Source: a virus. Taken from it: DNA of 35,678 bases. Shown here piece after piece: positions 1 through 27,772 of this stretch. The notes under the pieces were generated by a model. The model saw nothing but the letters and a program-made list of their open reading frames with translations, was not told the DNA's origin and did not search any database. The position numbers and the translations under genes are program-made. The DNA lies in IMG/VR virus record IMGVR_UViG_3300037489_000084, positions 1 through 35,678 of that record; one strand, 5' to 3'. Every line of letters begins with the position of its first letter. The stretch's first letter is position 1.

Positions 1-3000
1 ATAGGTTTTCTCATACCATTTCAAGGCAATTTTCAGCCGGTTTGCTTGCTCTGGAGTCAAAGACTCTCGGAAACTGAATCGGCGCCTGGCCGGGATGCTG
101 GTGAGAGGATGAGCCCGCTTAATGCTCCTTCTCAGGGTTCTCCCCGTTGCCCCAGGGTATGTGTAATATTTATCCAGGTATTTTTTAGCCGCTGTTAAGT
201 CCCCGTACTTTAAAGCCTGCCGGTAATAATACAAGGCATTGCTGCGGTTTGTGGGCCGCCCGGATGGTCGATCGGTGCCCTGTTCGTCCAGCCAATCAAA
301 GACAGCCTTTCTGGTATCATAATAGGCCTGCTCTCCTGGGTCCGAGGTGTAGACCAGCAAGGACTTGATATCAGAAAGAAAGTGCTCCGCCATGTTTTTG
401 CCGCGCCCTGGCTTGCCTGCTGCCATACGGTACATGGAATCAAGCGAGAAGGTTCTCAACACGTTTTCAACCCGGTCCCGAATGGGCCTGGGGGAAAACA
501 CGTCCGGATAGGTCCGGTATCCGGTCGCACTCTCGAATAATAGTTTAGGTTCTGGGCGGATACCCTGAACCGCTCTATTTAACAGCGCTTTGGGCGCGTC
601 TGTGATCTTGTCTTGAATGGTGGCCTTACCTTTCGCAACGTCGACAATGTCCGCCGGCCAATCTTCCAGGCCGAAAAATGATAGGGCATCAGATAAGGCG
701 CCCTGAAACCTGATTGTCATAATAGTTCCATCTTCTCGGCGCCCCAGTATCAAATGCATCTGCCGGCGCTTGGCTTCTCCCAGCTCCTCCCATTCGTCAC
801 GATGAGCAAGCATGTTCCAGAGAGTTACCATACCCATAAGAAGATTGGCCTTGATCAGAAGTTTAACGCTCCCTTTCGCCATTTTTAGCGATAGGATCCC
901 GGCAACGCGCTTACGCAGATCCGCAGCGTCCGAGTGCCTATCTTCGGATCTTAGGTTTCTCATCAAATAAACATACCTGGGAGCGTTAATTTCGATCCAG
1001 GAATAAAACGGAATCAGCCGGCGCCGGATATATTGGCCTGCTGCGGAAATATTGCCGTAATCGCCGATCAACTCGCGTGCCAGTTTGGCCGCCCGATCGT
1101 CCATATCTTTAATGTTATCGATCTCATGGACTTTAGAGGCGCCATATACCGCATTACCGGCTTTGAGTTGCTCTCGAAACCATCGGTAAGCCGCGAGACG
1201 AAGGACGTTCTCGCGTAGGACCGTTGTGCCCTTGGCCTTCTCCCAATAGCGCATGGCAATACCCGGTTTTTCACCCAGGAGCACATTCCGGACAAATTTA
1301 TCCATGCTCATAATATTGAGCACGTCCTCAACTTCCTGCACGGCAAAACCTGAACCGATCACGCCTTTACGCCGGGCGTTATTGATTTCAGCCTGGATAT
1401 CGGCGGGGAGCTCTCCGCGTTTCATCCATTTGCGAAGATCATTGAACGCTTTTCCCATACGAGCGGGCGTCGCGATCCCCGGCGCGTATGCCAGAGTAAT
1501 ATCCAAGTCGCCGGACATATTGTTGACATTATAGCGGGTCCATCGGCGCGGGTTTATCAGTATCCACATTTTCCATGCACTAATCGCCCAATCCGCCACA
1601 CGTCCCAGGGAATTGGCGTCCGGATATCTTCTGAAATTATCCATTGTCGATGCCAGACCCTTGGGCACAACCCAGGTAAGATCCCGGCCGCGGGCAAGAG
1701 CTTGGCGGACATCCTTGTCTTCAAGCGCCTTTTCGCCGGCTATGATCTTTTGCAAGATATCGTCCGCAACGGTATTGGTCCAGAACCACCCTTTGCCTGG
1801 AGTCGGTTTCCATTCGATATAATTTTCCGGAATGATGTTCTGATAGGTGATGAAGTCGTCTCCCAGGTATCCTTTGATCGTTTTGTTCCTGCCTTGGATA
1901 GCCTTGAAAATAGTTGCCGCCCAATTCGACCCGGGCAGGCCTCTACCAACCAGGTATGAGAGGAAAGCAAAATAGCGGGCGTCTGAAACATCTCCCAGCT
2001 CGTTGGCGCCCTGCTGTTCTTCCTCGGATAGCTTTTTATAACTATATTTCTCGGCCAAGGCGTCGACGACATCATCCCACTCGGAGTTGACGTTCAGATC
2101 GTCATTGTGGGCCATTTTCTCCAGGCCGGCGCCGGCCATGGCGATATTTTGCCTGAATGGGAATAGCGGGTCCAGCTTGACGGGGTCCTGGTGGATCTCG
2201 GCCACCGTGATTTTTTGATTATAGAGTGCTGACAGGTTTTCCGCTGTCTTCACATAAAACTTTTTCAGGTTCTCGAACTTTGCCGCGGTCTTTAAGTCCG
2301 AGTAAATATCGGATATGTTTTTAATTCGCTCCAGGGTCCGTGCCGTCTCAATTTGCGCGAGCTGCTGTGATAATGCGGCGAATTCGGCCTCAACGTATTC
2401 GGTGTTGTAATCAAGCATCGATCCCTTACGAGCTGTCATCCAGGGGCGCCAATGGGTACGGACATCGGCGCTGCTGGTCCCGATAGTCTTCATTTGATTA
2501 CCGGCCCAATATGACAATACCTGATGGTGGAAATAATCCTTGTGTTTCAGAACCTCTTTTTTAAGGACTTTGTATTTCACCATCTCCTTGACCAGGCCGT
2601 TGATATAGCTGCGACGATCGCTTATCGCCTTTCTTATCGAGGGGGCCTGGTCAGCTAACTGCTCGAAAGTATCAAAGGTGTCTTTGATTTCCTGGGTGCT
2701 TTTAAACCCAAATGGTAGGGTTTCACCCTCTTTTAATCCGCGATCGGTAAGGAGCTCGGTTTCAATATCCCGTATCATGTCCGAGAGAATAACGTGGATT
2801 CTGAATACCTCGTATTGGTCCTGGGTGAGGTTTTTGGTGAATTCGATCACCTTCCGCGCTGCCTGATCCTTGGCGGACTCGGGTACTTCCTGATGCTGCC
2901 TAAGAATATCGGATAGCTTATCTTCCTCGGCAACATTGCCGATTGTGTAGATGTCTGGGAAATGGTGTTTTTGGGCTTTCACGAAAGCAATCTTCTCCTT

Positions 3001-6000
3001 GGCGCTTTCGATCCATGATTTCTTGGGCACACCTCGGGACTGGGCGAATCTGTGTTTAACGTCCTCTGGCAGGCGCCCCACGACATCGATCGATCCTTGT
3101 TTCTTCATAAACAAGGGCATACCTTCATAGAGCGCCTTGGCCTTCATTTCGGGAGTGATTGGGAGCGATAGTACTTTAGTCTTATCAGACAGGCTCTTGA
3201 ATGAGGTGGGCCTTGTTTCGCCTGCTTCCGTTCTCTGCCCGGTGATCTCAATTTCCGAGACCCCAACCCGCGCCTTGCCCCAGGCCGAGGTGCCAAATAG
3301 CTTATTGAGCTTATTGGGTAGCATTTTGTCGTAAAATTCCAACATGCCCTTGCCGCCGATATCAAGGTCCAGGCCCTCTATTACGCCTTTATTGTCCGGC
3401 ATTTCCATAATACGCTTGGCAACGTCTTTGCCCACAACATCATCCAGTTGTTTGTCCTGGAATTCAGTCATGGAGGAATTGTCGATCTTGCCGGCTTTAT
3501 TAACTCCCAGTTCGACGGAATATTGTCGTCCTCGTTTTAAAATGATGCTAACTCCATAATCTACCTCCCCGGTTACTGCGTGCGTTCGAGGGACCACCTC
3601 AACCCTCTTGACTACCCGGCTCAGGTTATACCGCGTCTTCTGTGCCTCTCCAGGTGTCCAGGAAATCTTGTCGAATTCGTTTTCCGCAGCATATCTAACC
3701 ATCCGTTTCATAATCAGCATGGGCCATGCTTTTTTAAATGGAGCGTCTGGGACACCTTCCCGCCTGTCATGGGATATGTCGTTCATTTCTTGCTGGTCTG
3801 CTAAGGTGGCATTGCCCGCCTTGGCCTTTTTGCGTAATTCTGCAATCCGTGCATCTTTTTCGTCTTGACTTAGTTTCCTCAGCCTATACCCTTTATCCCT
3901 CCCCCTCTGATGCCAGTCGGACTGCACTTCCTCCAGGAATAAAATCTTTTCTCCGTCGGCATCGATGCGGGTATTGAAACGGACATGAGCAACCACGTTT
4001 TTAACATCGCGCCAATGCTGGTGGGTAAAAATATCCTTTTTATCATCTTTCCTTCGGGATACATCCCCGCGCCAACGGTCATCTTCTGACTCAAAATGCT
4101 CCAGCTTTTTAAGGTCGATGGCCTCCAGTTTTAGCCTATTGTCTTTCTGCGCCCATCCGTCCCCGTATTTTTCCCGCATAGCTATTTGAAAGACTTCCCA
4201 CTGTTTTTTTATAACCTCGTAACCTGTCGGTTTTACCGGCAATGTCAAAAGGAGCTCGCGGTAATCCTTCCCGCCTGGTAGCGTTAATGAGTGTTTATTA
4301 TACAGGGGCTCGGTCGGGCCGGGGGGGGCTTCCTCTCGGATAGTTTCACCCTCGTTAAAATCGACCATAGCTTCAACCTCGTTTAGAACGTATTGTTCGA
4401 CGGCAATTTTAGCCTCTGGCAAGGAATCGTAGACATCCATCCCCGCTACTTCCTGCCACGGCTGCCCGTCCTCAGTCACCAGAAAGACGGTGGACCCACG
4501 CGCAAACTCGGGCCTTATTTCAAATTCCAGGGACTCGCCGTTTGCTTCGTTTTCAAAGGTTGCCGTATAATAAGGCTCGGCCGCGTCCCCCTGTTCGTCC
4601 CAGTCCATCTCCGCCATTTCTTTAATGGCATCGTCTTTCAGATCGTCCGCCCAATCTTCGGCCACGTCCTTGGCGGCTTCCTCCTCCTCATAGGTGCCCA
4701 CCGTGTCTCCATCTACGTCCAGGGTCCAGGTCTCGTCCCACTCGCGGCTCATTTCAAATGTGTGAACCTGGCCGCTAACAGGGTTGGTCCATTCCGTATC
4801 GTAATGATCCCCGGTGAACATTGGCCAATTAATGAACCTATTGGTAAGGTGGTCCTTTATCTTTTTATCAGGATCGGTCCAATAGCTGATTTCCTCCAGC
4901 TTCACATTGTTTTCGTCCAACCAGGCAAGCAGGCCCTTGCTACCATCGCGCTTGATCTTGCCTTTCTGGGTTTTCAGCCACTCGCGCACGCCGGACCATT
5001 CCAGTTCTTCGCTTTTGATTTTGCCGGAATTGGCCATTTCTTTAAGCGCCCGTAAATATGACGATACGGTACCGGACTCGGGCAGGCTCTTTTCGATGGT
5101 GGCCGCCATTTGTGAATACCACATATCGGCAAGCGCCGGCATCCGGTCAAAAGCGATCGGGGGGAATACCGACGCCGGTTGACCTGTTCTGACGTACTGC
5201 CGTGCGCTTGCCAATAGGGCTCTTATCTCAGTATCCGAAAATTTCAGGTTGGGATTAATATTTCTCATCCATTTCCGGATCATTGCTATTACGCGATCAA
5301 TCCACTTGGAATCTGGGTTTGTTTGTGCCTCGCGTGCCAACCATTCATCAGCCGCCGCCCGCCGGCCCTCTTTGGTTTTTAAATCGAATCCATATTCCGT
5401 GGCAATGGCGGTGATTTCGGACCGCTTGGCCATATAGACGCGATCCAGCGTGCTGTCCAGCTTATCTCCCAAAATGGAACGTATGCCAAAATGGCCCATT
5501 ATCTCATGGAAAAGAGCTTTGACGGCTTCGTGCCGGTCCTCGATGTTTTCGGCCACCAGGTAAACCCGGCCATCGAAAACCGCGGCGACGACGATATCAT
5601 TTGTGGCGCCCTGCTCTTTCAGGTAGGTTTTCACACCAGGAGGCAAGCTGGATTGCCTTCCCAGGACCGTAACCCCTGGGCGTGTCTTCATTTCAGATAG
5701 GAAAGGATCGATGTTGTCTTGTACCGCCTGCCTGCTCATGGGCGCCTTGGGGCGTGAGACCTTGCGCGAAAACAGGATATTTTTTTCATTAACCAGGCTT
5801 TGGAAATAGTCGGTTGCTACTAATTCAACATCCCGCCTCCATACCTCCAAAATTCCCTTATCAGCCATTGATACATGATCGATGAGGATTTCATGCACGG
5901 TGCCACCGAAATGCTTGGCTTGCTGAACCAGTGCCTTTAAGTATCGGCCCCGCGCTTTGGATAGCTTGCCGCTCTTATCAGCGCTTTTCAGGTTTATAAC

Positions 6001-9000
6001 CATTGCCATGGCGTTGTGGCGGTCCAGCTCGCTAATCACCCGAGCGGTAAACTCTTTCTCGTTTTCTCCCTTGCCCCAGGGGACGAACCCCAGGTCTTGA
6101 TTTTTAGCGCCCAACAACATGATACCTTCCATGTCGTGATAGGTCTTCTTTAGATGCTTTATTGCCTCTACTGAGTTAGTTGGGCCTTGCGAAAGCCCGC
6201 CCGTATCAAATCCCCGTACAGGAGTTACGAACCGCTCGCCTACCGGTAATTTCGTGGTGAGATTTTCCCGGACCCGCTTTCTCATTTCGGGGGTTAGCGG
6301 CCGCCTTTGGTAAATCGTGCCGAATTCGTCAAATGGATCGAATTTTATATACGACGGCGGGTTATCAGCTATGATGACTGCTTCCAGCTCAATGCCTCTC
6401 ATTTTGGCAACGCTGGAGATCATCCGGCCTGCTGCATGATCCTCTCGGCTCGGCTCGGTAGATCCGGACGGGTGTTGATGGATGAAATAAACCTTGTGGC
6501 CGCCGTTCGACTTCAGCAAAGTTCCCCCGGTCTCTATGACAGGTATCGAGGCGCTTGACATAGTGCCCTTGGATACTTTGTGGATCTGAACAACATTGGC
6601 CTTATTGTCCACAACAATAGTATAGGCCTCCTCAGCGCCCTTTCTCAGGAGGAAGGAAACGAGTCCGGCCGCTTCCTCCGCGTTCCGGATCTTGGTCCCG
6701 TAATGGGAGATATCCCCGGTGGTCTCCAGTTGGACGGTCTGGCGAGGATCAGGAAGTTTCGGCGCCGCTTTCTTGGCCGCTTTCTTTTCGCCCTTGTCGG
6801 TGAAAAGATTTTGCTGATTGCCGCCAAACAGCGTCATTTGTACCTGTTTACCGTGCCCAAACAGATTATTAATATCCTTGGGCTCGCTGATGGTGGAACT
6901 TGTCAAAGTAGGTCCGGCGTATGGCTTTGAGACATTGGTAACAGTAGAAAACTCTATAACGTTATCCATGGCCGCCGCCGCATTTTTCCCGGTAGGTACG
7001 AAATAGCGGGTTTTATGGGCGATTGTCTCAACGATAATTCCCCATTTCTCCAGGTTGTCAAAATCATCATAATCCGGTCCGAATAGCTCGATCCTTTCGT
7101 CTCCGGAGACGGTCTTTTTCTTGATCTTCCAACGATTCGCGAGGCGGACCGTCGCGTTCTCGTCCATGATGTCTTTCACCAGGTCTTTGCCGCTGTAATC
7201 CGTCGCCTTTTTTGTCGCTCCCAGGTTGGTAAGCACAAAATCAATATTGTTTTGGGGAATGACCAGGCCTAAAAACCGCTCGCCGGCGTCGGTCTGAAGT
7301 CGGTGTACGGTAGAGGCGCCGCCCAATCGATCCCAGATCGGCAATAATGCGCCGGTCATAAGGTGGCTTTCCCGGGTGATGGTGGGTGAGGTTTCAGCAT
7401 AGATTTTATTCCAGCGATCGGCGGCCTCTTTCTTGCTGGTGATTTCGGTGAATGTGTGCTTGATAACTCCTTTTGGATCGAAAACCAGGAAGGTTTTATC
7501 GTTAATTACTTCCTGGCCGGAATAGTTGAATATCTCCGTAGTTGCGAGGAAATGCTGTACGAGGTAATCGAGATACTCGGCGTCGAATTCGTCGGTTAAC
7601 TCAACTCGGTATTGTTCATCTTCCGCCTTCGGCCCCTTTTTCCAGATCTCAATATTTAGATCGCCCCAGGGCATACTGCTGTCCAACTCGTATTTTTCCT
7701 CGAACAACCCCGCTTGCTGTGCTCCCAGTTTATCGACGTCTACCCGCTGCACCGTGCCTGCTGGGGACATCATCGATCGGTAGGTTACCGCGTTGCCGGT
7801 TCTATCCGTCATTGTGCGAGTGGGAGAGGCGCCCCAAATTTTGCCGCTTCTCAGGTTGACATAATACTTTTCGACGTTGACCATATCCTCAAACGGCTTG
7901 CGGTTGCTCGGGGTGGTTATGTCTAAGCGGATATAACGAGTCTTTGCTCCGGTGGCCTTGTCGGTGTTGACAGTCCGATCGTCTGTTTTGACGATATTTA
8001 GGGCTCTGATGGTTTCGATACCGACATCCAGCGTGCCGGCCGCGGCTGCAGCATCGATCAAAACGTCGATACGGTCCGACCATTCTCCGAATATTTTATT
8101 CTGCCATTCTATTTCCATGGTCAGAAGCCGGTTCATAAACTGCGTGGCAGGCGGGAGGGTTGCAAGCAAGTTCCCGTCCGTGTCGGTCAAAGATAGTGCG
8201 GTTTGCTCCTCGAAGTCTGAAAGGGTGATCGACGAAGATCCATCAACTATATTTCTATAAAGCTGATTGAGCGCCGAGGCCGCGTATCCGCTTTCCAGAT
8301 TGTCGCGGGCCTGGAAAATTCCCTGGCTGCCGGTTTGGCGCTGGCCTTTGGTGAGACTTCCTAATTGATCCAGCCGGCGTGCAATGGAAGATATAAACCG
8401 TTTTTGACCTTCAAGGTCGGTGGTTATCAACCAGTAGTTGGGCGGTTGCTTCTGATTGCTTCGGTGGGACCGTCCCAGGCCTTGAATAGCCTTGTCAGCT
8501 CTCCACCCGGGTTGGACTAAATAATGATCCCGCTTTCTCTGATTAATTCGGTCCAGGTCGGCATGGTAGGAAACCCCAGTCCCGCCTTTCTCGGAAAAGA
8601 CAAGGATCTGCTTTTCGTCGTCCATGAAGGCCGCGACGTCTTTTTTGACCGAGGAATCGTTCCTCTTTTCCTCTACGAGTTCTCCGTTTTCGTCATAAAC
8701 CAGCCGGACTTTTCGGCCCGTCACCTCGGCCACCTTATCCGTGCCGAAATGGTGGAGAATCATGTCAAGCGGGCTGCCTGGGACTGCGATCGCTGATATT
8801 CGCTGGATGAGCTCTTGCTTTTTCCTCAATGCCTCCCGATTGATTACCGGGTTACCCTGGCTGTCAACCATCGGCCTGCTGGCCTCGTTGCCGTTTTCGT
8901 CAATGTAATCCTCCCATTGCTGGGTGGGGAATCCTCTTTCGATGTACTCCAGGAGCGCCGCCTTCGGCCCCAGCTCCATATCTTCGAGTTCTGCGTCCTC

Positions 9001-12000
9001 ATCACGTGAGGCCAAGGCGCGTACAAGCTGATCGCCGCCATGGTTTACCAGCTGCAAAACGAGCGCGTGGCCTTTTGCCAGTTGCGCCTCCATGTGCTTG
9101 ATACCGGTGCCCATTTGCATGGTGGTAATTAACTGGTTAAAAAATCTTAATTGCCCGCCCCAAAATTGAGACTTCATCCGGCCTACGGATTGCCCGTCAT
9201 GGTCCTGTCCGGTTATTCCCAGGGCATCCTCCAGATTAGCCAGTACTAAGCGCCAGGCGCGGGCTAATTCGTCGTATTTGGCGCGTTGCGTCTTGTCTAA
9301 TTTGTGAACCAGTTTATTATGCTGCACGCCGTCATAAGAAAGAGTCGGTGCCAGATACAGGCCTCGGGCTTTCAAGTCGCGTGCCACCAGCTCCATGGCG
9401 CTTAGACCGCGGGCGTTGATATCGGTAATAAATGCGCCTTTATTGGGAAATGCCGTGCCTTCGCCCCAAAGTCCCAGGCGCTCGGCATAGGCCAAGTTAC
9501 GGACCTCGGTGGCCGCTGTGGCGGAAACATACAAGATCCTCGCATTTGGTAGCCGGTTCTGGAGCATTATTCCCGCCATGGCCATATCAGATGCGTCGGT
9601 AGTTCCCCGGTCGGTCTGCTGCTGCAACGAGTTGCTCATATTGTGGGATTCGTCAAACGCGATAATGCCGTCGTAATCTTTCCCCGCCCATTTAACTATT
9701 TGATTTATGCGTACTCGCATATTTCTCAGGGTTGACGGGTCGTTTTCGTTGATTTTCTTGAATTTCGAGGACAATGTTGAATAGGTGGTAAACATGATCC
9801 CGTCTCGGTCTGGAATCGTGTCTCCCGGCTTGGTTTTCATGTAGAAAAGATTATCCGCACCCTCTGCCCAGCCTATTCCGGATTCTACTTTTCGAGCTGG
9901 ATCGAATCCTATATCCCGCTTGGCATCGTTAAACAGCTGCGCTTTCTCGGATATCCAAATAGCTTTTTTCCGGCCTCTATTCCAGTTATCCAGGATAATA
10001 CTTGCAATGATTCGGCCTTTCCCCACTCCGGTTCCATGGCCGGCAAAAAATCCGCGCCGTTGCCCATTGCGTAAAATACCATCATGGGCCTGGCCGGCGT
10101 AGACAGCGGATTCTAATTGGGCATCAGATGTCCTACCTTCGTCAATCATCTTTTGGGGAAGTCTGGGCTTGTAGGTGGCAGGCGGCGGGTTGGTATCTCC
10201 CAGGGCGGCCGATTCGTCAAGCTGGGTGGGATGTTTCTTGGCGCCCTTGATCTTAACCGTTGGTACATAACGCTGATATAACTTTTCCTTGATCTCAGCG
10301 ACTTCCTTTTCCGCCTTTTTAAGATCCAGTTCCCCTTGGGCGCTCGCCTCTTTTGGCGAGGGGGGCTCGAGGTCTGGCCGATCGTTCTCGTAGAAATGCA
10401 ATACCCAGTTTTTAGCGATATTGATATCTGTAACCCCATTGGCCATGAGGTTGCGGAGCGCGTCTTTTATCCATTCGTGGGCACGTGCTTTTAGATCCTT
10501 GGCGCCCTCCATGAAATTGGCATATTGCGTGGCAAACTTGACCTTGGCCTTTGCGTAGATCTCAGGGAGCATTAAGGGAGCGGTTGCCGGCTTCTTTTCG
10601 CCACCATAGGGCGCCTCGGGCTCTTTTACCTGATTTTTGGCATTATTAATCAGATCGGCAATATCGCCATAGTCGCCGCTACCCGGTTTTTTGGGTGGAG
10701 CGGGAGCGGGTGGTCCGCCCATGGGCGCGAGGGGTGGTCCAGGTTCAGGGGTTTGCGGAGGTTTGGTTTCGGTTTTCTCGGCTTCGAGTTCGGAGACTAC
10801 ATCGTCAAAGATATCCGAAATATCATCTAACGATAGGTCTCCAGTCGTTTCGGGGGGTAACTGCTCTGGCTCTCCGTCGCCGCGCCGTGGAGTTCCTCCA
10901 GGAGGATGTCCGCTTGTTCCAGGGGGTCGCTCCGGAGGGGCTGGTTGTTCAGGTCCAGGTAATTGATCACGTGGGCCGGCTGGTGGTCCAGGAGGTTGTT
11001 CAGGAGGTGCTCCAGGCTCTCCGACGTCTGTGTCAGCTTGATCTTTCCCGCCCTTATCGCCCAGATCAGAAGGCTTAGGGCGTGGAGATGGTGGTCCGGA
11101 TGGGGGGCCTTCGCCTTTATCAGGAGTTCCCGGCAATGGCGGTTGAAGGGTGTCTGATTCGCCTTTTTCGTCAGATTTAATCGTTTTTGGTCGATCATTT
11201 CGGATACTCCTTAAAAGATCGGGCAACGCTCCAACGGTTTCAACATCAGCGACAACAGGATCATATCGCGTTGGGCCGGAATTGTCAATGATGATAAGTC
11301 GATTGTCGAATGTTGTCCCATATTTACGGTATTCGTCGCCGCTGATACCAATATTAGCACGGACATTATACTCTTTTTTGATAAGTGTCCACCATCTACG
11401 GAAGGTGGGCGCGGTCATGTCCATGCCGCGGCCCACTATTGCCACCAGGCGCCCATTAGGCTCCAGGCGCTTCAATGCCTGATCGACGTGTTGAGCGCCA
11501 TAGGCCGTGGCGTTTCGTTTAAGCCTGCCGGCCGTCGAAGAAAAAGGCGGATTCATCACAACAACGGTAGGTTTGACATGATCCGGTAGGATATTGTTAA
11601 GCTGGATAGCGTCTTCTCCAAAAACCTCATTGCTGATATTAAGCAATTCCAGGAGTTCACGCCTGCGGTTGCTCAACTCGTTGGTGTAGATTTCCTCCGC
11701 GTTGGTCATGCGTCCAAAGACAGCAAGCCCACCGATCCCGGCCGAGGGTTCCAGGTATACGTCATTGTTCCCAATGGCTGCTACCCAGTTAGCCACATAG
11801 GCGAGAAATGGCGGTGTTGAATATTGTTGGTATTCAATCTGCTCGTTGGTACGCTTACTTTGAGTCGGTAAATAATCAACCAGATCTTTTAATTGGTCGA
11901 TGATGGATTCTGGGGTCCTTTTGGAAGAATTCGGACCTTCTACAAACCGAAGATATTTCAGGAGGTACCGGTTGACACCCAGCTCCATGGCGTCGTAGGC

Positions 12001-12711
12001 GTCGCGAGGCGTATAAGCTCCCTCCGCCTGGGTACCACCGAAGAACTCATCGGCTTTCTTGAAAAGCTCTCTCCAGGTAATTGTATAATCGGGGCTCGGG
12101 TCCTCTGTGATCGGCGCGAGGGCGTCGACTACCCAGTTAGCAAGCCGGCCGGAATTCTTGGTCTTTTCCGAAAGCTCCGGTTTGTTCATCTTGTCCCTCA
12201 GACGGCTTGTTCCTTTTTCCTTGCGCCTAACCGATAGGCCTTTGGCAAAGAACCGTTCTGCCCGTCCGCCTCCCAGGGTGCCCACAACGTCGTAATACAG
12301 ATCGGTCCCCTTTTTAACCGCGCCGATCTCTTTTGCCCATCCAATAATGAATTTCTTTTCGAGCTGGTCAACCTTGTGGCCGGATGCAACCCCAACGGCT
12401 GCCCAATGAGGATCTTCCTCTTTTTTCTTTTTGGGCTTGGGCTCGGGAGGTGGCTCTACCTTATCTTCAAATATCGGTTTGCCGGCATTTTTGGCCTTGG
12501 CGGTCAAATCGTAATGGTGAACCATGATAGCCGCTTTAACCGAGGCGCGTCGGACTTCGAGAACCTTCTTGCGAACCTTGACGGCTTTTTTAAGGCCTTC
12601 GAGTGGCGTCCCGCCCTGCTGGATATTAGCAGCTATCTCTTTTTCGAGCTGCCCCTTAATATCCTTGCTCAAACCCTTATTTTTGCTTAAACACTTGAAA
12701 GGATCACTCAA
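1..12711 (-). CDS. Giant polyvalent protein (N6-MTase, strawberry-notch helicase, RadC/JAB, zincin), partial
   Basis: One open frame of at least 4237 codons runs off the left edge, so the C-terminus is missing. Domains numbered from the TTG at 12711: residues ~290-490 N6-adenine methyltransferase (motif I EPSAGIGG at ~319, NPPF at 387); ~505-680 proline-rich linker; ~860-1480 strawberry-notch-type SF2 helicase with Walker A GHGTGVGKG (K898), DESH box (1020-1023), an SAT motif and GRSHR (1413-1417); ~1990-2130 RadC-like JAB domain with HQHPSG and a matching Asp (H2078, H2080, D2091); ~2380-2480 zincin with HEIMGH (2402-2407); EEVQSDWHQ at ~2927, typical of large polyvalent-associated domains. 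The last ~1000 residues look helical and I cannot assign them. Known family: polyvalent phage proteins, including DarB-like antirestriction factors. Inferred role: ejected with the DNA to protect it. The start is uncertain: TTG overlaps the previous stop; the first in-frame ATG is at 12525. Confidence 0.9.
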   Translation of the reverse strand, partial: MSDPFKCLSKNKGLSKDIKGQLEKEIAANIQQGGTPLEGLKKAVKVRKKVLEVRRASVKAAIMVHHYDLTAKAKNAGKPIFEDKVEPPPEPKPKKKKEEDPHWAAVGVASGHKVDQLEKKFIIGWAKEIGAVKKGTDLYYDVVGTLGGGRAERFFAKGLSVRRKEKGTSRLRDKMNKPELSEKTKNSGRLANWVVDALAPITEDPSPDYTITWRELFKKADEFFGGTQAEGAYTPRDAYDAMELGVNRYLLKYLRFVEGPNSSKRTPESIIDQLKDLVDYLPTQSKRTNEQIEYQQYSTPPFLAYVANWVAAIGNNDVYLEPSAGIGGLAVFGRMTNAEEIYTNELSNRRRELLELLNISNEVFGEDAIQLNNILPDHVKPTVVVMNPPFSSTAGRLKRNATAYGAQHVDQALKRLEPNGRLVAIVGRGMDMTAPTFRRWWTLIKKEYNVRANIGISGDEYRKYGTTFDNRLIIIDNSGPTRYDPVVADVETVGALPDLLRSIRNDRPKTIKSDEKGESDTLQPPLPGTPDKGEGPPSGPPSPRPKPSDLGDKGGKDQADTDVGEPGAPPEQPPGPPAGPRDQLPGPEQPAPPERPPGTSGHPPGGTPRRGDGEPEQLPPETTGDLSLDDISDIFDDVVSELEAEKTETKPPQTPEPGPPLAPMGGPPAPAPPKKPGSGDYGDIADLINNAKNQVKEPEAPYGGEKKPATAPLMLPEIYAKAKVKFATQYANFMEGAKDLKARAHEWIKDALRNLMANGVTDINIAKNWVLHFYENDRPDLEPPSPKEASAQGELDLKKAEKEVAEIKEKLYQRYVPTVKIKGAKKHPTQLDESAALGDTNPPPATYKPRLPQKMIDEGRTSDAQLESAVYAGQAHDGILRNGQRRGFFAGHGTGVGKGRIIASIILDNWNRGRKKAIWISEKAQLFNDAKRDIGFDPARKVESGIGWAEGADNLFYMKTKPGDTIPDRDGIMFTTYSTLSSKFKKINENDPSTLRNMRVRINQIVKWAGKDYDGIIAFDESHNMSNSLQQQTDRGTTDASDMAMAGIMLQNRLPNARILYVSATAATEVRNLAYAERLGLWGEGTAFPNKGAFITDINARGLSAMELVARDLKARGLYLAPTLSYDGVQHNKLVHKLDKTQRAKYDELARAWRLVLANLEDALGITGQDHDGQSVGRMKSQFWGGQLRFFNQLITTMQMGTGIKHMEAQLAKGHALVLQLVNHGGDQLVRALASRDEDAELEDMELGPKAALLEYIERGFPTQQWEDYIDENGNEASRPMVDSQGNPVINREALRKKQELIQRISAIAVPGSPLDMILHHFGTDKVAEVTGRKVRLVYDENGELVEEKRNDSSVKKDVAAFMDDEKQILVFSEKGGTGVSYHADLDRINQRKRDHYLVQPGWRADKAIQGLGRSHRSNQKQPPNYWLITTDLEGQKRFISSIARRLDQLGSLTKGQRQTGSQGIFQARDNLESGYAASALNQLYRNIVDGSSSITLSDFEEQTALSLTDTDGNLLATLPPATQFMNRLLTMEIEWQNKIFGEWSDRIDVLIDAAAAAGTLDVGIETIRALNIVKTDDRTVNTDKATGAKTRYIRLDITTPSNRKPFEDMVNVEKYYVNLRSGKIWGASPTRTMTDRTGNAVTYRSMMSPAGTVQRVDVDKLGAQQAGLFEEKYELDSSMPWGDLNIEIWKKGPKAEDEQYRVELTDEFDAEYLDYLVQHFLATTEIFNYSGQEVINDKTFLVFDPKGVIKHTFTEITSKKEAADRWNKIYAETSPTITRESHLMTGALLPIWDRLGGASTVHRLQTDAGERFLGLVIPQNNIDFVLTNLGATKKATDYSGKDLVKDIMDENATVRLANRWKIKKKTVSGDERIELFGPDYDDFDNLEKWGIIVETIAHKTRYFVPTGKNAAAAMDNVIEFSTVTNVSKPYAGPTLTSSTISEPKDINNLFGHGKQVQMTLFGGNQQNLFTDKGEKKAAKKAAPKLPDPRQTVQLETTGDISHYGTKIRNAEEAAGLVSFLLRKGAEEAYTIVVDNKANVVQIHKVSKGTMSSASIPVIETGGTLLKSNGGHKVYFIHQHPSGSTEPSREDHAAGRMISSVAKMRGIELEAVIIADNPPSYIKFDPFDEFGTIYQRRPLTPEMRKRVRENLTTKLPVGERFVTPVRGFDTGGLSQGPTNSVEAIKHLKKTYHDMEGIMLLGAKNQDLGFVPWGKGENEKEFTARVISELDRHNAMAMVINLKSADKSGKLSKARGRYLKALVQQAKHFGGTVHEILIDHVSMADKGILEVWRRDVELVATDYFQSLVNEKNILFSRKVSRPKAPMSRQAVQDNIDPFLSEMKTRPGVTVLGRQSSLPPGVKTYLKEQGATNDIVVAAVFDGRVYLVAENIEDRHEAVKALFHEIMGHFGIRSILGDKLDSTLDRVYMAKRSEITAIATEYGFDLKTKEGRRAAADEWLAREAQTNPDSKWIDRVIAMIRKWMRNINPNLKFSDTEIRALLASARQYVRTGQPASVFPPIAFDRMPALADMWYSQMAATIEKSLPESGTVSSYLRALKEMANSGKIKSEELEWSGVREWLKTQKGKIKRDGSKGLLAWLDENNVKLEEISYWTDPDKKIKDHLTNRFINWPMFTGDHYDTEWTNPVSGQVHTFEMSREWDETWTLDVDGDTVGTYEEEEAAKDVAEDWADDLKDDAIKEMAEMDWDEQGDAAEPYYTATFENEANGESLEFEIRPEFARGSTVFLVTEDGQPWQEVAGMDVYDSLPEAKIAVEQYVLNEVEAMVDFNEGETIREEAPPGPTEPLYNKHSLTLPGGKDYRELLLTLPVKPTGYEVIKKQWEVFQIAMREKYGDGWAQKDNRLKLEAIDLKKLEHFESEDDRWRGDVSRRKDDKKDIFTHQHWRDVKNVVAHVRFNTRIDADGEKILFLEEVQSDWHQRGRDKGYRLRKLSQDEKDARIAELRKKAKAGNATLADQQEMNDISHDRREGVPDAPFKKAWPMLIMKRMVRYAAENEFDKISWTPGEAQKTRYNLSRVVKRVEVVPRTHAVTGEVDYGVSIILKRGRQYSVELGVNKAGKIDNSSMTEFQDKQLDDVVGKDVAKRIMEMPDNKGVIEGLDLDIGGKGMLEFYDKMLPNKLNKLFGTSAWGKARVGVSEIEITGQRTEAGETRPTSFKSLSDKTKVLSLPITPEMKAKALYEGMPLFMKKQGSIDVVGRLPEDVKHRFAQSRGVPKKSWIESAKEKIAFVKAQKHHFPDIYTIGNVAEEDKLSDILRQHQEVPESAKDQAARKVIEFTKNLTQDQYEVFRIHVILSDMIRDIETELLTDRGLKEGETLPFGFKSTQEIKDTFDTFEQLADQAPSIRKAISDRRSYINGLVKEMVKYKVLKKEVLKHKDYFHHQVLSYWAGNQMKTIGTSSADVRTHWRPWMTARKGSMLDYNTEYVEAEFAALSQQLAQIETARTLERIKNISDIYSDLKTAAKFENLKKFYVKTAENLSALYNQKITVAEIHQDPVKLDPLFPFRQNIAMAGAGLEKMAHNDDLNVNSEWDDVVDALAEKYSYKKLSEEEQQGANELGDVSDARYFAFLSYLVGRGLPGSNWAATIFKAIQGRNKTIKGYLGDDFITYQNIIPENYIEWKPTPGKGWFWTNTVADDILQKIIAGEKALEDKDVRQALARGRDLTWVVPKGLASTMDNFRRYPDANSLGRVADWAISAWKMWILINPRRWTRYNVNNMSGDLDITLAYAPGIATPARMGKAFNDLRKWMKRGELPADIQAEINNARRKGVIGSGFAVQEVEDVLNIMSMDKFVRNVLLGEKPGIAMRYWEKAKGTTVLRENVLRLAAYRWFREQLKAGNAVYGASKVHEIDNIKDMDDRAAKLARELIGDYGNISAAGQYIRRRLIPFYSWIEINAPRYVYLMRNLRSEDRHSDAADLRKRVAGILSLKMAKGSVKLLIKANLLMGMVTLWNMLAHRDEWEELGEAKRRQMHLILGRREDGTIMTIRFQGALSDALSFFGLEDWPADIVDVAKGKATIQDKITDAPKALLNRAVQGIRPEPKLLFESATGYRTYPDVFSPRPIRDRVENVLRTFSLDSMYRMAAGKPGRGKNMAEHFLSDIKSLLVYTSDPGEQAYYDTRKAVFDWLDEQGTDRPSGRPTNRSNALYYYRQALKYGDLTAAKKYLDKYYTYPGATGRTLRRSIKRAHPLTSIPARRRFSFRESLTPEQANRLKIALKWYEKTY

Positions 12712-13593: not shown

Positions 13594-13595
13594 TA

Positions 13596-14003: not shown

Positions 14004-14018
14004 ACACCTAACCTCCTG

Positions 14019-15863: not shown

Positions 15864-15878
15864 GATATGTCTCCTCTG

Positions 15879-17795: not shown

Positions 17796-17804
17796 GTAAT
17801 TTCC

Positions 17805-18139: not shown

Positions 18140-21100
18140 TTATTTACCTCCAGTCAAACAATTCAGGAGTTCTTCATAACCTGAGATTTCCTCATCCAGG
18201 TCTATAAGATACTCGGCCGCGTCGGTGTCACGCTCTACTAAATCCCCGGTTTCTTGTACCCTAACCTTCTTGGTGAAGGCTATTCCAGATGGTTTCCCGG
18301 TCCTTCTGTATTCGGCCGCGACGTATTTAACATATTCCCCAGGAGTAAGCATTTCGGGCTTTGTGGGCTCGGGCGCCGGGGGAGCTGGAGTATCCTCCAC
18401 GACAAGACCGAAATTAGCATCCATGGACTCAATAAACGTCCTCGGCGGAAACATGAAGGTTTGATCCTTGGTATCTGCCATAGCATCAGAAGCAAATCCC
18501 TTGAATCGTTTGGCCAATACTGGCTGGGTTTCGATAACCAGCAGCTTCCCTATGGTTTGCGCAATAGGTCCATAACTTTTCTCATCCCCAAATAAGGACC
18601 GCTGCTTTAAAAATTCCCGAATAGATAGATCGGCGCCCTTGGCCTGGGTGGCAAGCTGGAGCGCGTCTTTCACGTCGGGGGTGATATCCCATTGCCCTCC
18701 TCGGGCCTTAATCTTCGCTAAAGACGGCAAAAGCCGGCCGATCTTGTTTAACAGGCCTTTGGGCGCTGCTGATAATAGGTCCGGATCATCTATAATAGAT
18801 CCTAATAGGGCCTTTTCGATAATGGTTTTACCGGTATCATTGAGAAGACCGACCTTTTGACTGACAAACTTATTAACATCCCCGGAAGCTACGACGCCGT
18901 CCCCTATCAACCATTGTAGGATCTCGGTGCCGTCCTTCTTGCCGAGGAGCTCACGTAGGGTAAGATCGCGGTTTGACATTCGCAGGCCGATTTTCTCGAT
19001 CGTCTCCATGGAGATGTTTTTCCCCATAGATGCTATTTCGGCCTCCTGGCTCACCCCTTGCGTAAGGGATTTATTAAAGTCACTGGCCATACGGTGAAGG
19101 ACGGTTGCGTTGACTTCGTCAAGATAGACCATCCTCACCAATACGGGTTTGCTCATGCCAGAGACAGCAGTTGGCATAATGCCAAATTTAGGAAGGGCCT
19201 TTGTGGTTAACAGGTTTTTGTAGGCAAATGCTTTTTTGGGCTTATCGGCCGCGTATGCCAGTTGCAGGCTCATGGCGCGGGAGTTGCCACCCAGGACTAC
19301 TCCGGTTGCGGTGACAATCGGCGGGCCGTTGGTGGGTGTAGGATCATCAGAGAGCACAATATCTGGATTTAAATTCTGGGCGTTGGTGATAACCTTTTCT
19401 TGCTCGGCCGGATCGGTGTCGTAGGTACGCTCCTGGATGCCTGCGGGATACTTCGGATTTTTCTGGAATGTCCTGGCGTTGTGCGAAGGTATCAGAGCAT
19501 CTGCCTCGATCAAAGCGTAATGGGCCAAATAGCCGCGCTTATTACCTGGGGTGATAATATTGACGCGCTTGCCAGTGATCATCTTTATATCACGAGCGCC
19601 CTGGACGGTCCCTTTCAGCTTCTTGGCTGCCCGCTCCTTGGTCTGCTTATCCAGCCAGTCGGCAAAATCGGACTTTCTCATAGCCGTCATGGACCCGAAA
19701 CCTTGCCAGCCTTGCTCGTAATTGGCCATATAGGCGGCTTTTGCAGCGTCCCTGCTCCAAAACCCTAACATGACCTTATCTTCGTCCGGCTTTTTGGTTT
19801 TCGGGTCAACCTGGTGGATAATAAAAACGCTGGTGGTTTCCAGAGCATCGCCCATAAACAGATCTATTTCGTCGCCGTCCTTGCCCTCGGTTCGAGAGAA
19901 ATACCCGTAATGATTTTTCATTAGGGTTTTCCACTCTTTGCCGTCCGCGCCTTTACCCCTGCGGTATTCGCCGGCTGGGTTTTCGATGGTGATGTCGAAG
20001 CCCATTACCTTAAAATGCCCCTTGCTGTAATTGCCGGCTTTCTTCTGGCCTTCGCTCGGATCGGTGTCGACGCTATCCAGCTCTTTTTTGATCTTGGCCG
20101 CGGAATCGGTATCCGGTGGGGTGGTCCGCATGGGAGCGCGACGGGCGCCGCCTCTTAAATACTGCTTTTTTACCCAATCGTCGTATTCTTTGGGAGTTTT
20201 GCCCTCATGCTTTTTCTTGAATTCAATCTGCTGTAAGGCTTCTTGCTTATATTTCGCAGGTACTTTGGAAACGTCGATTTTAAGCCGATCGAATTCCGCG
20301 AGCTGTTCGGGGGTGAAAAGTTTCCGCCCTCTTAATTTCTTTTCAGGAACTCTTTCCCGTTCACCTGGAGCTTGCTTCCCTTTGGCAACGAACCCAGGAA
20401 GTCCTTTGGGGATTGCGCCCCTTCCGGCCCGTTTACCTGCAATCTCACGCTTCTTTTTGTGCTCCTGGAGTCTGGTTTCTGCTGCGGTAGTGGTTTGCGC
20501 TTTGCCATAGCTAAATTGCACCTCGTATTTGATCTGCTTGCCGTCTGGCAAGGTTACGGTTATTGGATTCTTTGCAAGGTGAGATACTATACGTTTGTCC
20601 AGTATGTCGTCTAACCTGGAACTATCGTCAGATTGGACGATGAACTCATCTCCGGATATGTGATAGGTGTCCGCGTCGGTGATCTGCTTTAGGGCATCGC
20701 CAAAATTGATAAGGATCTGATCGCCGGTCTGGTGGCCGAAGGCATCATTAAAATATTTCAAGCTATCCAGATCGATGGAAGCAACATGCTTTTTCCTGGT
20801 GTCCTCGATGTCGAAAGCCTGCTTATTGCGTAGGCCTGTGAGATAATCGGTATTGAGCGCCTCTCGAAGCTCGGTCTCCGACATTTCCTCGGTGCGCTTT
20901 CGAGGCTCCATGCCGGCCATGATTCGACCATGCACGGTTTTTAAGGCTTCGTCGATGGGAGTATCTTCCTCGATGGTCTCTCCCAGGCGCTTGGCAAGCT
21001 CTTTTAGGCCTTTGCCTTCTCCACGAACCAAAATATTTCTTGCTGAACGGACGAACTGCTCCTCATCCAGCTTCTTGGAATTGAGATAGATGTTGCGGAA

Positions 21101-22990
21101 TCCCTTATCCCATGCCGGGGGCGGGCGTTCGGGTGTCTCGCGTCGGTCCCTGGTTTCCCGGTCCAGGTCGCGACGATCGCCCATCGGCGCTTTTGACGAT
21201 ACTGCAGCCAAGGCCTTTTTAACCAGCCTCGAACCTTCCTCCGCTGCATCTAATTTAGCCTGAAATTCTGCTTGCGCTATTCTCCCCGCTGAGTCCAGAT
21301 CCTTATAAGTGCCGTCAATAAAGGGTTTTAGATCCCTTTCAGCTTCCTTGATTCGGCCGGCATACCCTTCCGCCATGCCTTGCAGCTCTGGAGCGGACTT
21401 CTTAATCAGCCTCTTGTAGAACGGTTTGTCTTCATCGGCTCCCTCGCCTTGAAGTACTCCACCTGATGGAGGCGCTTTTTTGCCTGGTTTAACGGGAGGG
21501 GCCGGCTTAGGTTTTTGCCCTTGTGGCTCTTTACTTGGTACAGGTCTTTTCCCACCTTTTTTATCACCCGAGGCCTCCTTTTTAGGTTCAAGTTTGGATA
21601 GTTCTTCCTCCGAAAATTCCCCGGCTTCCTCCTCGGCATCGATGGACTCAGCTCCGCCGAATTTTTTCCCTTTGGTTTTATCCCGGATCTTTTTTGCTGC
21701 ATCCTCCCCCAGGAGGATGTCTTTAGCCGTTGTTTCAGATCCATCGGTTAGCAGATCCTTGGCCGCGCTTTCCTTGCCTGCCCGGCCCGCTACCCCTGCC
21801 ATGCCGCCACCCATGAAGAACCCGGCCACGGACCCTTGGGCCATTGCCTCGCCCACGCCCTCGGTTAGCTCCTGGTTTTCATCGACTAACATTTTGCGCG
21901 AAATGTTACTAACAAGGCGTTCCATGCCGGATTGTGGCATTTCCTCGAAAAACCCCTCCGTAATAGCTCCCTTCAGGAGGTTGCCCCAGAGAGACTTTCC
22001 GCCCTCGCCGCCGATCAGCTTACCCATGAAGGCGCCGGATGGGGCGCCGAATATTCCGGTCGTGAGTGCGGTTGGAATTCCGACGAAAGCGCCGGTGGCC
22101 ATGGCAAGAGCTTTCCTGGCGTAGGCGTGCTTTTTCTCGATGGAGAGAGAATCCGGCATTGAGTTGAATATTTCGTCATAGGCGCGGGACTTGATAAGTT
22201 CCTCTTGCGGGAGGTCCATTATTTCCTGGTAGGCCTGGGAGGCGTTCTCCAGTCCGGAATATCCACCCTCCCCAGCTGCGCCGCCTATTACGCCGGCCAC
22301 GGCATTGACACCGTATTTATTGACCATTTTATTGATGACACCTTGAACTATCTTGGGCGCTGCCTTCAGGCCGGTTGAGATAAGTCCCTTGGTGATCATC
22401 ATGCTTCCGCCCATTGATATTATTGTAGACGGTATAGATTCTGCAATTAATCCAGCTATTTTCCATGGGTCAGTTGCCCCTGGGCCAAAGAATCCCTCCT
22501 CCTCGCCGCTTGCCAGAATGGTTTTTTTCATGCTGGCTTTCATGGCTGGAGTTAGCTTTTCGTCGTAATAACGATCGGCTTCGTCGCCCCACTCTTTTAA
22601 CTTGGCCGAGGCACCGTGCTTGTCGGAAAAATCGCGGTAGCTCTGCATCATTTCATTGTCAGTCAGATCCCCATAGGCGCCGATTAGCTTTCCGGCTCTT
22701 GCAGCAGGATTGGTAAGGGAATTGAAGAATGATGCAGTTTTGGCGATACCAGCTGCTCCCTTGCCCATGACACGAGGAATATCCCACAAGGAGTGGCCAC
22801 CCTCGTCAGGTTCGTCGATATTACTGGATTGCGGATCGTTTTCATAAGGGTCCGCACCCTCAAAAGGATCGTAGTCCACCACTTCACCGACGGAATAAGT
22901 GGAATCTTCCGAATCGGCCGGGGAGTCGATTGTATCTTCATCGTCCTCAAAAGGGTCGTAGTCGAGCACATCGCCAATTTTATAGGCCAT
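18140..22990 (-). CDS. Polyvalent protein with GGDEF, pyrophosphatase-like and DdrB-type ParB domains
   Basis: A 1616-residue protein from ATG 22990 (ribosome-binding sequence GGAGAAAAG). Order: acidic N-terminus with two copies of a [IV]G[DE]V[LV]DYDPFE motif (residues 5-15, 34-44); residues ~175-410 with several hydrophobic, Gly/Ala-rich stretches that could insert in membranes; charged Lys/Pro linker ~420-520; coiled coil ~530-600; GGDEF domain ~710-860 with DYLTGLRNK, DLDSLKYFND, GHQTGDQ and SGDEF (779-783) and no RxxD inhibitory site; inorganic-pyrophosphatase-like domain ~985-1120 with YGY and DGDEID (D1038, D1040, D1043); ParB-like DdrB domain ~1140-1290 with LIPSHNARTF and VVLGGNSRAMSLQ; then the helical DdrB-type tail. 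These are established domains of polyvalent antirestriction proteins; the GGDEF domain is unusual. Location suggests a virion-packaged, ejected protein (inference). Confidence 0.93.
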   Translation of the reverse strand: MAYKIGDVLDYDPFEDDEDTIDSPADSEDSTYSVGEVVDYDPFEGADPYENDPQSSNIDEPDEGGHSLWDIPRVMGKGAAGIAKTASFFNSLTNPAARAGKLIGAYGDLTDNEMMQSYRDFSDKHGASAKLKEWGDEADRYYDEKLTPAMKASMKKTILASGEEEGFFGPGATDPWKIAGLIAESIPSTIISMGGSMMITKGLISTGLKAAPKIVQGVINKMVNKYGVNAVAGVIGGAAGEGGYSGLENASQAYQEIMDLPQEELIKSRAYDEIFNSMPDSLSIEKKHAYARKALAMATGAFVGIPTALTTGIFGAPSGAFMGKLIGGEGGKSLWGNLLKGAITEGFFEEMPQSGMERLVSNISRKMLVDENQELTEGVGEAMAQGSVAGFFMGGGMAGVAGRAGKESAAKDLLTDGSETTAKDILLGEDAAKKIRDKTKGKKFGGAESIDAEEEAGEFSEEELSKLEPKKEASGDKKGGKRPVPSKEPQGQKPKPAPPVKPGKKAPPSGGVLQGEGADEDKPFYKRLIKKSAPELQGMAEGYAGRIKEAERDLKPFIDGTYKDLDSAGRIAQAEFQAKLDAAEEGSRLVKKALAAVSSKAPMGDRRDLDRETRDRRETPERPPPAWDKGFRNIYLNSKKLDEEQFVRSARNILVRGEGKGLKELAKRLGETIEEDTPIDEALKTVHGRIMAGMEPRKRTEEMSETELREALNTDYLTGLRNKQAFDIEDTRKKHVASIDLDSLKYFNDAFGHQTGDQILINFGDALKQITDADTYHISGDEFIVQSDDSSRLDDILDKRIVSHLAKNPITVTLPDGKQIKYEVQFSYGKAQTTTAAETRLQEHKKKREIAGKRAGRGAIPKGLPGFVAKGKQAPGERERVPEKKLRGRKLFTPEQLAEFDRLKIDVSKVPAKYKQEALQQIEFKKKHEGKTPKEYDDWVKKQYLRGGARRAPMRTTPPDTDSAAKIKKELDSVDTDPSEGQKKAGNYSKGHFKVMGFDITIENPAGEYRRGKGADGKEWKTLMKNHYGYFSRTEGKDGDEIDLFMGDALETTSVFIIHQVDPKTKKPDEDKVMLGFWSRDAAKAAYMANYEQGWQGFGSMTAMRKSDFADWLDKQTKERAAKKLKGTVQGARDIKMITGKRVNIITPGNKRGYLAHYALIEADALIPSHNARTFQKNPKYPAGIQERTYDTDPAEQEKVITNAQNLNPDIVLSDDPTPTNGPPIVTATGVVLGGNSRAMSLQLAYAADKPKKAFAYKNLLTTKALPKFGIMPTAVSGMSKPVLVRMVYLDEVNATVLHRMASDFNKSLTQGVSQEAEIASMGKNISMETIEKIGLRMSNRDLTLRELLGKKDGTEILQWLIGDGVVASGDVNKFVSQKVGLLNDTGKTIIEKALLGSIIDDPDLLSAAPKGLLNKIGRLLPSLAKIKARGGQWDITPDVKDALQLATQAKGADLSIREFLKQRSLFGDEKSYGPIAQTIGKLLVIETQPVLAKRFKGFASDAMADTKDQTFMFPPRTFIESMDANFGLVVEDTPAPPAPEPTKPEMLTPGEYVKYVAAEYRRTGKPSGIAFTKKVRVQETGDLVERDTDAAEYLIDLDEEISGYEELLNCLTGGK

Positions 22991-26281: not shown

Positions 26282-27772
26282 TTATATGGTTTCCTGAATA
26301 TTAAAAAACAGTACATCAGTTTTTGGATCGACGAAAAGCGCGGTTGAGTCCAGCTCGATCTCCGAGACCGATCCATTCTCCATATTGATCACGACGGCGC
26401 CCACGTCTCCGGCCCCATCGTTATAAAATGCAAAATAGCGCCCGTCGTGATAGGCGCCGATAAATGTTTCCGGATGGTAGGCCGCCCAATCCTTTGTGGT
26501 GTAGGCGCCCTTGGTGATAACCCGGCCCTTGCCGCCACCCACGTAATACAGGCCGTCATTAGAGGGAAAGGCAATACCGTTCTCGAAAGCCACCAGGCCA
26601 CGCGAGGACACGCAGGGGTGAGAGTCTGCAAACCTTACCGGTGTCATAACTCCTGGGTTAGATCCCTGCACGATATAAGGATTTTGCTCGGTGCCAATTA
26701 CCAGGCTATTGCCGACCGCTCCCATGGCCACAATGGGGAAATCCAGCGGAAAGGAGTATTTATCCGGGTAAGCATGGGGATAGTTGGGCTCGCAGAAAAA
26801 CAGGTCCTTGCCGACGAAACCGGCCATAAACCGGCCAATACTGGTCAAACCTTTCATCGTAAGAGGTGGTGGGTACCAATCATCAGAAGGAAGGATCGTG
26901 CCGCCGGCCGCCTGTGTGTCAGTTTTGGTATCAACATAGACCTCGGTTGCCATGGCCACGGCGCCGATATAGTGGTAACTGCCAAAGACGTCCCCGGTTA
27001 AAATACGGTAAACTCGCTTTGTCGCTCCGCTATCAAATAAGATTTCTTTCTTGTAACATCTCCAGGTGCAACCATTATCATCGGTATCGGCATCGATGGT
27101 TGTACCCCAGGTCGGCTCTCCGCTGCCTGACACGCCGCCGTCAACACACATATAAACGTGATCGACTACGCCTGAAGACGGGACAATGTACATGCCGGCA
27201 TCATAGGTCTGACTCGCTGCCCACTTGATCGTGATGCCTGACAGGTTGACCGTCTGGCCTTGCATGGCCGATACAAGATTACTGGCAGGAGACGGCGGAC
27301 CCTCCTCGCCCCATGAGGTGACAAGCGTCCACTCATATCCGATTTCGCGAGGATCTCCTGTGCCGCCGCCGCCCAAAGCTGCGGTAAGCGCCAAATGAGG
27401 AATAGGCGCTCCCATGGGGTAGAAATTGATCGGGTAGGGAGGTGATCCCGTCGTCGCTTCGTCCTCATTGGTTTTTTTCGGAAGCCCGATGCCGGTAAAA
27501 TATCGCCGGTTGGTCGTGTCATTGGCAATGGGACCAGGTAGGATATGAACCTCTGCCGTAAACTCAAACCAATACGTTTCCAGGTACCGGTATATGGTCT
27601 TAATCAGCGTGTCGGACTGGGAAAGAGTTGTGTCAATCAGCTCTTTTTTCCAGGGGCGCAGTGATCCCTTTTGCAAATTTGCATTGCGGGCCACCTTGGC
27701 CATGTTCGGCTGGAGGAGATGGGCTTCTATTCTTGGCTGCATACCCTGAAAGGTGTCTATTGATATCAACAT
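26282..27772 (-). CDS. Tail nozzle-like beta-propeller protein
   Basis: A 496-residue protein whose ATG shares a base with the previous stop (TAATG). The N-terminus (LISIDTFQGMQPRIEAHLL, MAKVARNANLQKGSLRPWK) is characteristic of short-tail tubular/nozzle proteins that begin with a strand swap and a list of 'variable naming' residues. The body contains repeated beta blades (PIVAMGAVGNSLVIGTEQNP, GLVAFENGIAFPSNDGLYYV, TKDWAAYHPETFIGAYHDGR), consistent with a beta-propeller as in P22 gp10 or T7 gp12. It probably forms the distal tail channel. A fibronectin-like insert around residues 160-200 (YEWTLVTSWGEEGPPSPAS) is also plausible. Annotation is by pattern, not search. Confidence 0.8.
   Translation of the reverse strand: MLISIDTFQGMQPRIEAHLLQPNMAKVARNANLQKGSLRPWKKELIDTTLSQSDTLIKTIYRYLETYWFEFTAEVHILPGPIANDTTNRRYFTGIGLPKKTNEDEATTGSPPYPINFYPMGAPIPHLALTAALGGGGTGDPREIGYEWTLVTSWGEEGPPSPASNLVSAMQGQTVNLSGITIKWAASQTYDAGMYIVPSSGVVDHVYMCVDGGVSGSGEPTWGTTIDADTDDNGCTWRCYKKEILFDSGATKRVYRILTGDVFGSYHYIGAVAMATEVYVDTKTDTQAAGGTILPSDDWYPPPLTMKGLTSIGRFMAGFVGKDLFFCEPNYPHAYPDKYSFPLDFPIVAMGAVGNSLVIGTEQNPYIVQGSNPGVMTPVRFADSHPCVSSRGLVAFENGIAFPSNDGLYYVGGGKGRVITKGAYTTKDWAAYHPETFIGAYHDGRYFAFYNDGAGDVGAVVINMENGSVSEIELDSTALFVDPKTDVLFFNIQETI

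Follow-up and report, generated by a model that had tools for sequence, protein, structure and literature searches.

A virus-specific SGDEF-type GGDEF domain alongside an inorganic pyrophosphatase in a DarB-like phage polyvalent protein

We analyzed a 35,678-base IMG/VR virus record (hereafter, the window) and found that it encodes a 1616-aa DarB-like polyvalent protein carrying a true GGDEF fold. Alignments and trees place this domain in a coherent, virus-specific SGDEF subfamily that is new here, and members of the subfamily repeatedly lie close to an inorganic pyrophosphatase (InPase) domain. We consider it very probable that the domain functions as a nucleotide-binding enzyme, and the protein is likely packaged in the virion and injected. 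An earlier note on this DNA had described a near-intact GGDEF domain and proposed a profile search, a structural comparison with PleD and a survey of phages for GGDEF beside the pyrophosphatase. The results of all three are given below.

Organization of the polyvalent gene and its locus

The 1616-aa ORF is intact in the window, and its best PHROG match is a DarB-like antirestriction family (Table 1). It is polyvalent in the sense of several unrelated enzymatic domains per polypeptide, with GGDEF, InPase and ddrB-ParB domains in one ORF. The second giant ORF encodes a strawberry-notch type helicase, RadC and a methyltransferase-like domain, and matches the downstream part of the giant proteins of two other loci, L002 and L010. 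The DarB-like scaffold is a single giant ORF in L002, L010, JC1 and Atu_ph08 and is divided between two ORFs in the window. Five genes (12952-18137), with no Pfam or PHROG match, separate the two.

Two further observations concern this region. In the tail region, a 515-aa protein (28956-30503, minus strand) carries BNR/Sortilin-Vps10-type beta-propeller repeats (Pfam E=1e-17). Additionally, phrog_2206 ('virion RNA polymerase') matches 21662-22492 on the minus strand (residues 167-443, E=3e-16); this match probably stems from an ejection/packaging module that the two have in common and does not denote a polymerase.

Table 1. Features of the window, with coordinates, strand and basis of assignment.
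Feature	Position	Strand	Basis
DarB-like polyvalent protein, 1616 aa, carries GGDEF	18140..22990	-	ORF; Pfam and PHROG domains
N-terminal module, residues 146-386, common to virion-associated DarB-like proteins	21833..22555	-	blastp
GGDEF domain, residues 698-870, SGDEF-type, virus-specific subfamily	20381..20899	-	Pfam, AlphaFold2, Foldseek, tree
D740-D757: metal D740, phosphate K745, guanine-binding N748 and D757	20720..20773	-	conservation; PleD alignment
SGDEF motif, residues 779-783, catalytic D781 and E782	20642..20656	-	viral alignment
C-terminal signature K845..R848-E..G852.R854..R857-G..P861, viral-subfamily-specific	20408..20458	-	viral vs bacterial alignment
Inorganic pyrophosphatase (InPase), residues 981-1113	19652..20050	-	Pfam E=2.7e-50
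ddrB-like ParB superfamily domain, residues 1151-1287	19130..19540	-	Pfam E=1e-16
Second giant polyvalent ORF, at least 4237 aa, runs off window	1..12711	-	Pfam AAA_34, Helicase_C_4, RadC
JC1 gp61 homologue ('head closure', virion-associated), upstream of polyvalent gene	26282..27772	-	31%/503 aa, E=7e-63; phrog_511
Major capsid protein, 50% identical to JC1 gp48, anchors phage type	34184..35323	-	Pfam Phage_capsid_3 E=5e-53

The GGDEF domain and its active site

Four motifs, DYLTGLRNK (715-723), DLDSLKYFND (740-749), GHQTGDQ (752-758) and SGDEF (779-783), occur once each, in the GGDEF order and spacing that the earlier note had recognized. Residues 713-843 match the Pfam GGDEF profile (PF00990) with 48.9 bits (E=8.3e-13); the curated cut-off is 23.8, so the match is not due to chance. 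Viral members score 48.9-54.0 bits against the same profile, and all 65 aligned members pass the cut-off.

An AlphaFold2 model of the domain, built from 65 viral sequences, has a mean pLDDT of 90.7 and the canonical strand/helix order. In Foldseek, the best solved structure for this model is PleD (E=2e-9, probability 1.00), and the nearest solved structures, PleD, DgcR, DgcB, SiaD and TpbB, are all diguanylate cyclases. A sequence profile of the domain finds 48 solved chains, nearly all of them GGDEF proteins.

The metal and catalytic acids of PleD, D327 and E370/E371, are kept as D740, D781 and E782, while the guanine-reading residues N335 and D344 are kept as N748 and D757. The position of the I-site reads 'ITDA' in the alignment, with no RxxD, in agreement with the earlier note. 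The I-site is an optional trait that GGDEF membership does not need.

A virus-specific SGDEF subfamily

Seventy-one loci with a related GGDEF domain were retrieved from viral contigs by an alignment-based scan. In the majority of these the domain lies within ORFs of 600-5288 aa; about 12 are stand-alone proteins of 154-164 aa that resemble gp44 of phage YuA. No cultured phage carrying the fused form was recognized among the matches listed. D740, N748, G756, G780, D781 and E782 show no variation among the 70 aligned viral domains, D742 is kept in 69/70, and K745 and D757 are each kept in 65/70. The metal-binding Asp, the ND pair and the GDE that the earlier note had seen kept in the window are represented among these positions, and related phages show no degradation of the catalytic acids.

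The loci were retrieved through two peptide patterns, DSLK and SGDEF, and each motif was checked in the loci found by the other pattern. All 16 loci found by DSLK only keep GDE, and all 33 found by SGDEF only keep D740 and N748. We therefore rejected the conservation as an ascertainment artefact of the pattern scan, since it holds when each motif is conditioned on the other.

Several features set the viral domains apart from their nearest bacterial counterparts. The motif opens with Ser in 61, or by the alignment count 62, of the 69 readable viral domains, and with Gly in 76 of 79 bacterial ones. Two residues before the motif, His is found in 53/69 viral domains, whereas Arg is found in 79/79 bacterial domains; this is the position of PleD R366, which is His in the fused viral clade. 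An RxxD I-site is present in 1/69 viral domains compared with 44/79 bacterial ones. Towards their C-terminus the viral domains share a nearly invariant signature, K..RE..G.RA.RG..P (R854 68/68, G852 67/68, K845 68/69, R857 65/68), and G.R..RG..P was found in none of the 80 best bacterial GGDEF matches. The viral domain thus has the fold and active-site residues of PleD/WspR-type bacterial diguanylate cyclases, but differs from them in these features and in being without a receiver or sensor domain. Motif decay was rejected as the origin of SGDEF, as most of the family has Ser here and the acids never vary. The earlier note's term 'near-intact' thus undersells the domain, because Ser in place of the first Gly is no lesion.

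Phylogenetic analysis supports the same division. In a tree of 147 rows, the viral domains lie on one side of a single branch (SH-aLRT 98). In a tree of 74 rows, in which the bootstrap is not fully settled, the viral domains split from the sampled bacterial GGDEFs with bootstrap/SH-aLRT of 100/99 and the fused forms make up one group (100/96). A viral profile scores cellular GGDEFs of four genomes at no more than 85 bits and fused viral proteins at 146-244 bits. Pairwise dN/dS among viral domains, where measurable, is about 0.12-0.35. As to other companions, methyltransferase-like or GNAT acetyltransferase domains occur in the GGDEF polyvalent proteins of L027 (7974-8525; residues 1086-1200, downstream) and L021 (7161-12704; residues 534-599).

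Relation to known phage GGDEF proteins

GGDEF domains in polyvalent proteins are already known, as are stand-alone GGDEFs in YuA-like phages, so the kind of protein is not new; the earlier note was not aware of GGDEF as a standard polyvalent domain. Iyer et al. (2017) count GGDEF among polyvalent domains, calling it 'not very widespread', and suggest that it may interfere with nucleotide-based responses (PMC5512222). Their Acetonema longum protein (WP_004096050.1) similarly embeds GGDEF in a (pro)phage polypeptide of giant size and many domains. The companions of their GGDEF proteins are SWI2/SNF2, methyltransferase, ART and similar domains, and the idea of injected nucleotide signaling is alike; their passages on GGDEF, however, describe no subfamily, SGDEF rule or InPase pairing.

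Stand-alone proteins like YuA gp44 occur in Mesyanzhinovviridae (YuA, MP1412 and Bordetella phages CN1, MW2 and LK3) and are annotated as diguanylate cyclases. They belong to the viral clade and share its SGDEF/AGDEF motif and the K..RE..G.RA.RG signature, but they are single-domain proteins of about 156 aa with Arg, not His, before the motif. The SGDEF branch is thus used both in this stand-alone form and as probable injected cargo. In YuA and MP1412 the gene is located upstream of the terminase, with an antirestriction gene, of KlcA type in MP1412, directly after it (L005 9968-10926; L006 7968-8929). These neighbors suggest that viral GGDEF recurs in counter-defence surroundings.

The 1616-aa protein itself gave no PADLOC hit at E<=0.01, and its membership in a defence system, CBASS/CD-NTase and mCpol (Panoptes) included, was rejected on this basis. 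The subfamily, its signature and the close GGDEF-InPase pairing were not reported in the literature searched, which is only part of the existing literature.

Virion association and phage type

The structural genes of the window are colinear with those of Burkholderia phage JC1, with the capsid gene followed by homologues of gp49, gp51, gp52, gp56, gp61 and gp64. The phrog_511 family, to which the gp61 homologue belongs, was found in 10/50 other records. By blastp, the N-terminal module matches the N-terminal part of JC1 gp69 (28%, E=7e-12), the Snf2/DarB-like protein of Atu_ph08 (32%, E=2e-20) and the L010 giant protein (35%). JC1 gp69 was detected in CsCl-purified virions by mass spectrometry, with 51 unique peptides (PMC9144972). 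Virion delivery, which the earlier note had proposed, is likely on the strength of this homology.

The JC1 and Atu_ph08 proteins, from Bcep22-like podoviruses, share both the N-terminal module and the gene order with the window, and the Atu_ph08 protein also has an InPase. No GGDEF was found in JC1 gp69 or in the 3368 aa of the Atu_ph08 protein examined. In L004, as read from gene order and sequences, GGDEF is part of a 2526-aa protein at the position of T7 gp16, directly upstream of a tail-fibre-like gene. Together, the JC1 synteny, the module shared with gp69 and the gp16 position in L004 suggest that GGDEF resembles exchangeable cargo on a virion-ejected scaffold. L004 additionally contains an HNH homing-type endonuclease-like ORF of 155 aa (8763-9230, minus strand), antisense inside the intact 2526-aa ORF and just downstream of GGDEF.

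The possibility that the contig had acquired a gene from a cell or prophage was not supported, with no plasmid match at 1e-12. A search of about 800 genomes from the orders of Azohydromonas and Bradyrhizobium gave no match at 1e-33, a weak result given that scoring covered no more than eight candidates in each genome and no positive control gave a signal.

Close pairing of GGDEF and inorganic pyrophosphatase

In 13 fused loci of the GGDEF set, the ORF also encodes an InPase. Among 15 distinct proteins with both domains, the window included, nine have them within 40 residues of each other. GGDEF comes first in five of these (L029, L030, L033, L040 and L158) and InPase in four (L010, L016, L021 and L034), with gaps of 11-28 aa; the presence of both orders points to separate joinings of the two domains. 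Random placement in the ORF would give 0.64 close pairs (p<=5e-5), and placement confined to 400 residues 1.5 (p=2e-5), under nulls that ignore shared descent. The two domains of the window protein are separated by 104 residues. Its InPase keeps the acidic motif D-G-D-x-x-D along with further conserved acidic positions. This close pairing is new here, and our claim is restricted to closeness, with no enrichment of co-occurrence claimed. A search with the ddrB-ParB domain returned 12 loci, five with InPase and none with GGDEF, and a search for relatives of the window's helicase found none.

Diguanylate cyclases release two pyrophosphates (PPi) per c-di-GMP, and the simplest reading of the pairing would be that InPase is coupled to the pyrophosphate of the neighboring GGDEF. 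It is nevertheless quite possible, with a chance somewhat short of even, that InPase serves replication or transcription and that its closeness to GGDEF reflects the crowding of enzymatic modules. Iyer et al. (2017), in the part concerned with InPase, proposed that it may clear the PPi of nucleotidyltransfer reactions for these processes (PMC5512222). InPase is also far commoner in polyvalent proteins than GGDEF, with at least 549 loci, and of 96 loci with InPase just 3 also have GGDEF, which indicates that InPase has other uses as well. Crowding is harder to reconcile with the short gaps in both orders, which exceed expectation even with InPase held within 400 aa.

Proposed mechanism and alternatives

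In what we regard as the best explanation of the whole, a finely balanced one, a Bcep22/PBC5-like podovirus would use this gene to make a DarB-type polyvalent protein that travels in the virion and enters the host together with the phage DNA. Among the cargo of the protein, GGDEF would be a diguanylate cyclase with full catalytic competence. Shortly after infection, two copies of the protein would come together in the cell and turn bound GTP into c-di-GMP; lacking the I-site, they would escape product inhibition. The neighboring InPase would destroy the released pyrophosphate and pull the cyclase reaction forward. The resulting c-di-GMP pulse would precede phage gene expression and may shift the host to an infection-favoring state or blunt nucleotide-based defence. 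Homology supports the packaging step; cyclase activity, its product, dimerization in the cell and physiological purpose are what we infer. We count the replacement of PleD R366 by His in the fused clade against the cyclase reading. GGDEF domains also need to dimerize for catalysis, and the meeting of two giant proteins in the host is another weak point of this reading.

The same difficulty favors a GTP-binding, non-cyclising module, such as a sensor, tether or structural cargo, comparable to degenerate nucleotide-binding GGDEFs. Such a module would suit a giant chain that may not dimerize, and Ser at the first Gly together with His for Arg in most fused members is in line with it. We consider this unlikely, though a serious contender. 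Degenerate GGDEFs usually lose the acidic pair of the motif, whereas here the catalytic acids, beyond the GTP-binding residues, are invariant across about 70 diverse viruses. Moreover, SGDEF domains are able to synthesize c-di-GMP, as reported for MbaA and others cited there (PMC8079147), which bears out the earlier note on this point.

An active cyclase might instead make a different product, such as linear pGpG or a mixed or unusual cyclic dinucleotide, directed against nucleotide-based immunity, for example as a CBASS/Panoptes competitor. The separateness of the subfamily, its particular R/G signature at the C-terminus and the His next to the motif would be compatible with this, virion delivery would let it act in the first minutes, and nucleotide decoys matter in phage conflict, as in Panoptes. 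The conserved guanine readers N748 and D757, however, point to GTP and c-di-GMP, and the protein is without a defence-family match, making a different product quite improbable.

Equally doubtful is a role in lysogenic conversion, in which the gene would increase c-di-GMP and biofilm of the lysogenized host instead of supplying an injected effector: YuA gp44 is annotated with a 'putative role in host cell conversion' and Bordetella LK3 lysogens, which carry the stand-alone form, over-produce biofilm (PMC8471281), but the LK3 link is an association, and the window domain lies in a late structural module, in a DarB-like scaffold, and not in an early or lysogeny gene.

Returning to the injected cyclase, a more far-reaching version would have a particle-delivered, virus-only branch of nucleotide cyclases, fused to its own pyrophosphatase, flood the cell with a cyclic dinucleotide within minutes of infection, ahead of all phage gene expression, and thereby block or mislead cyclic-nucleotide immunity or reset host behavior. 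We think this improbable as a whole, and the decoy or anti-immunity role in it is hypothetical.

Known phage strategies remove cyclic nucleotides, by degrading or sponging them. A virion that carried in a cyclic-dinucleotide synthase would, if true, do the opposite. The family is broad, with about 70 viral loci, its active site is kept, and a culturable stand-alone form exists in YuA gp44, which makes the proposal directly testable. Furthermore, if InPase acts on the cyclase pyrophosphate, this would provide a biochemical reason for a common and so far unexplained polyvalent domain, at least in GGDEF-InPase proteins.
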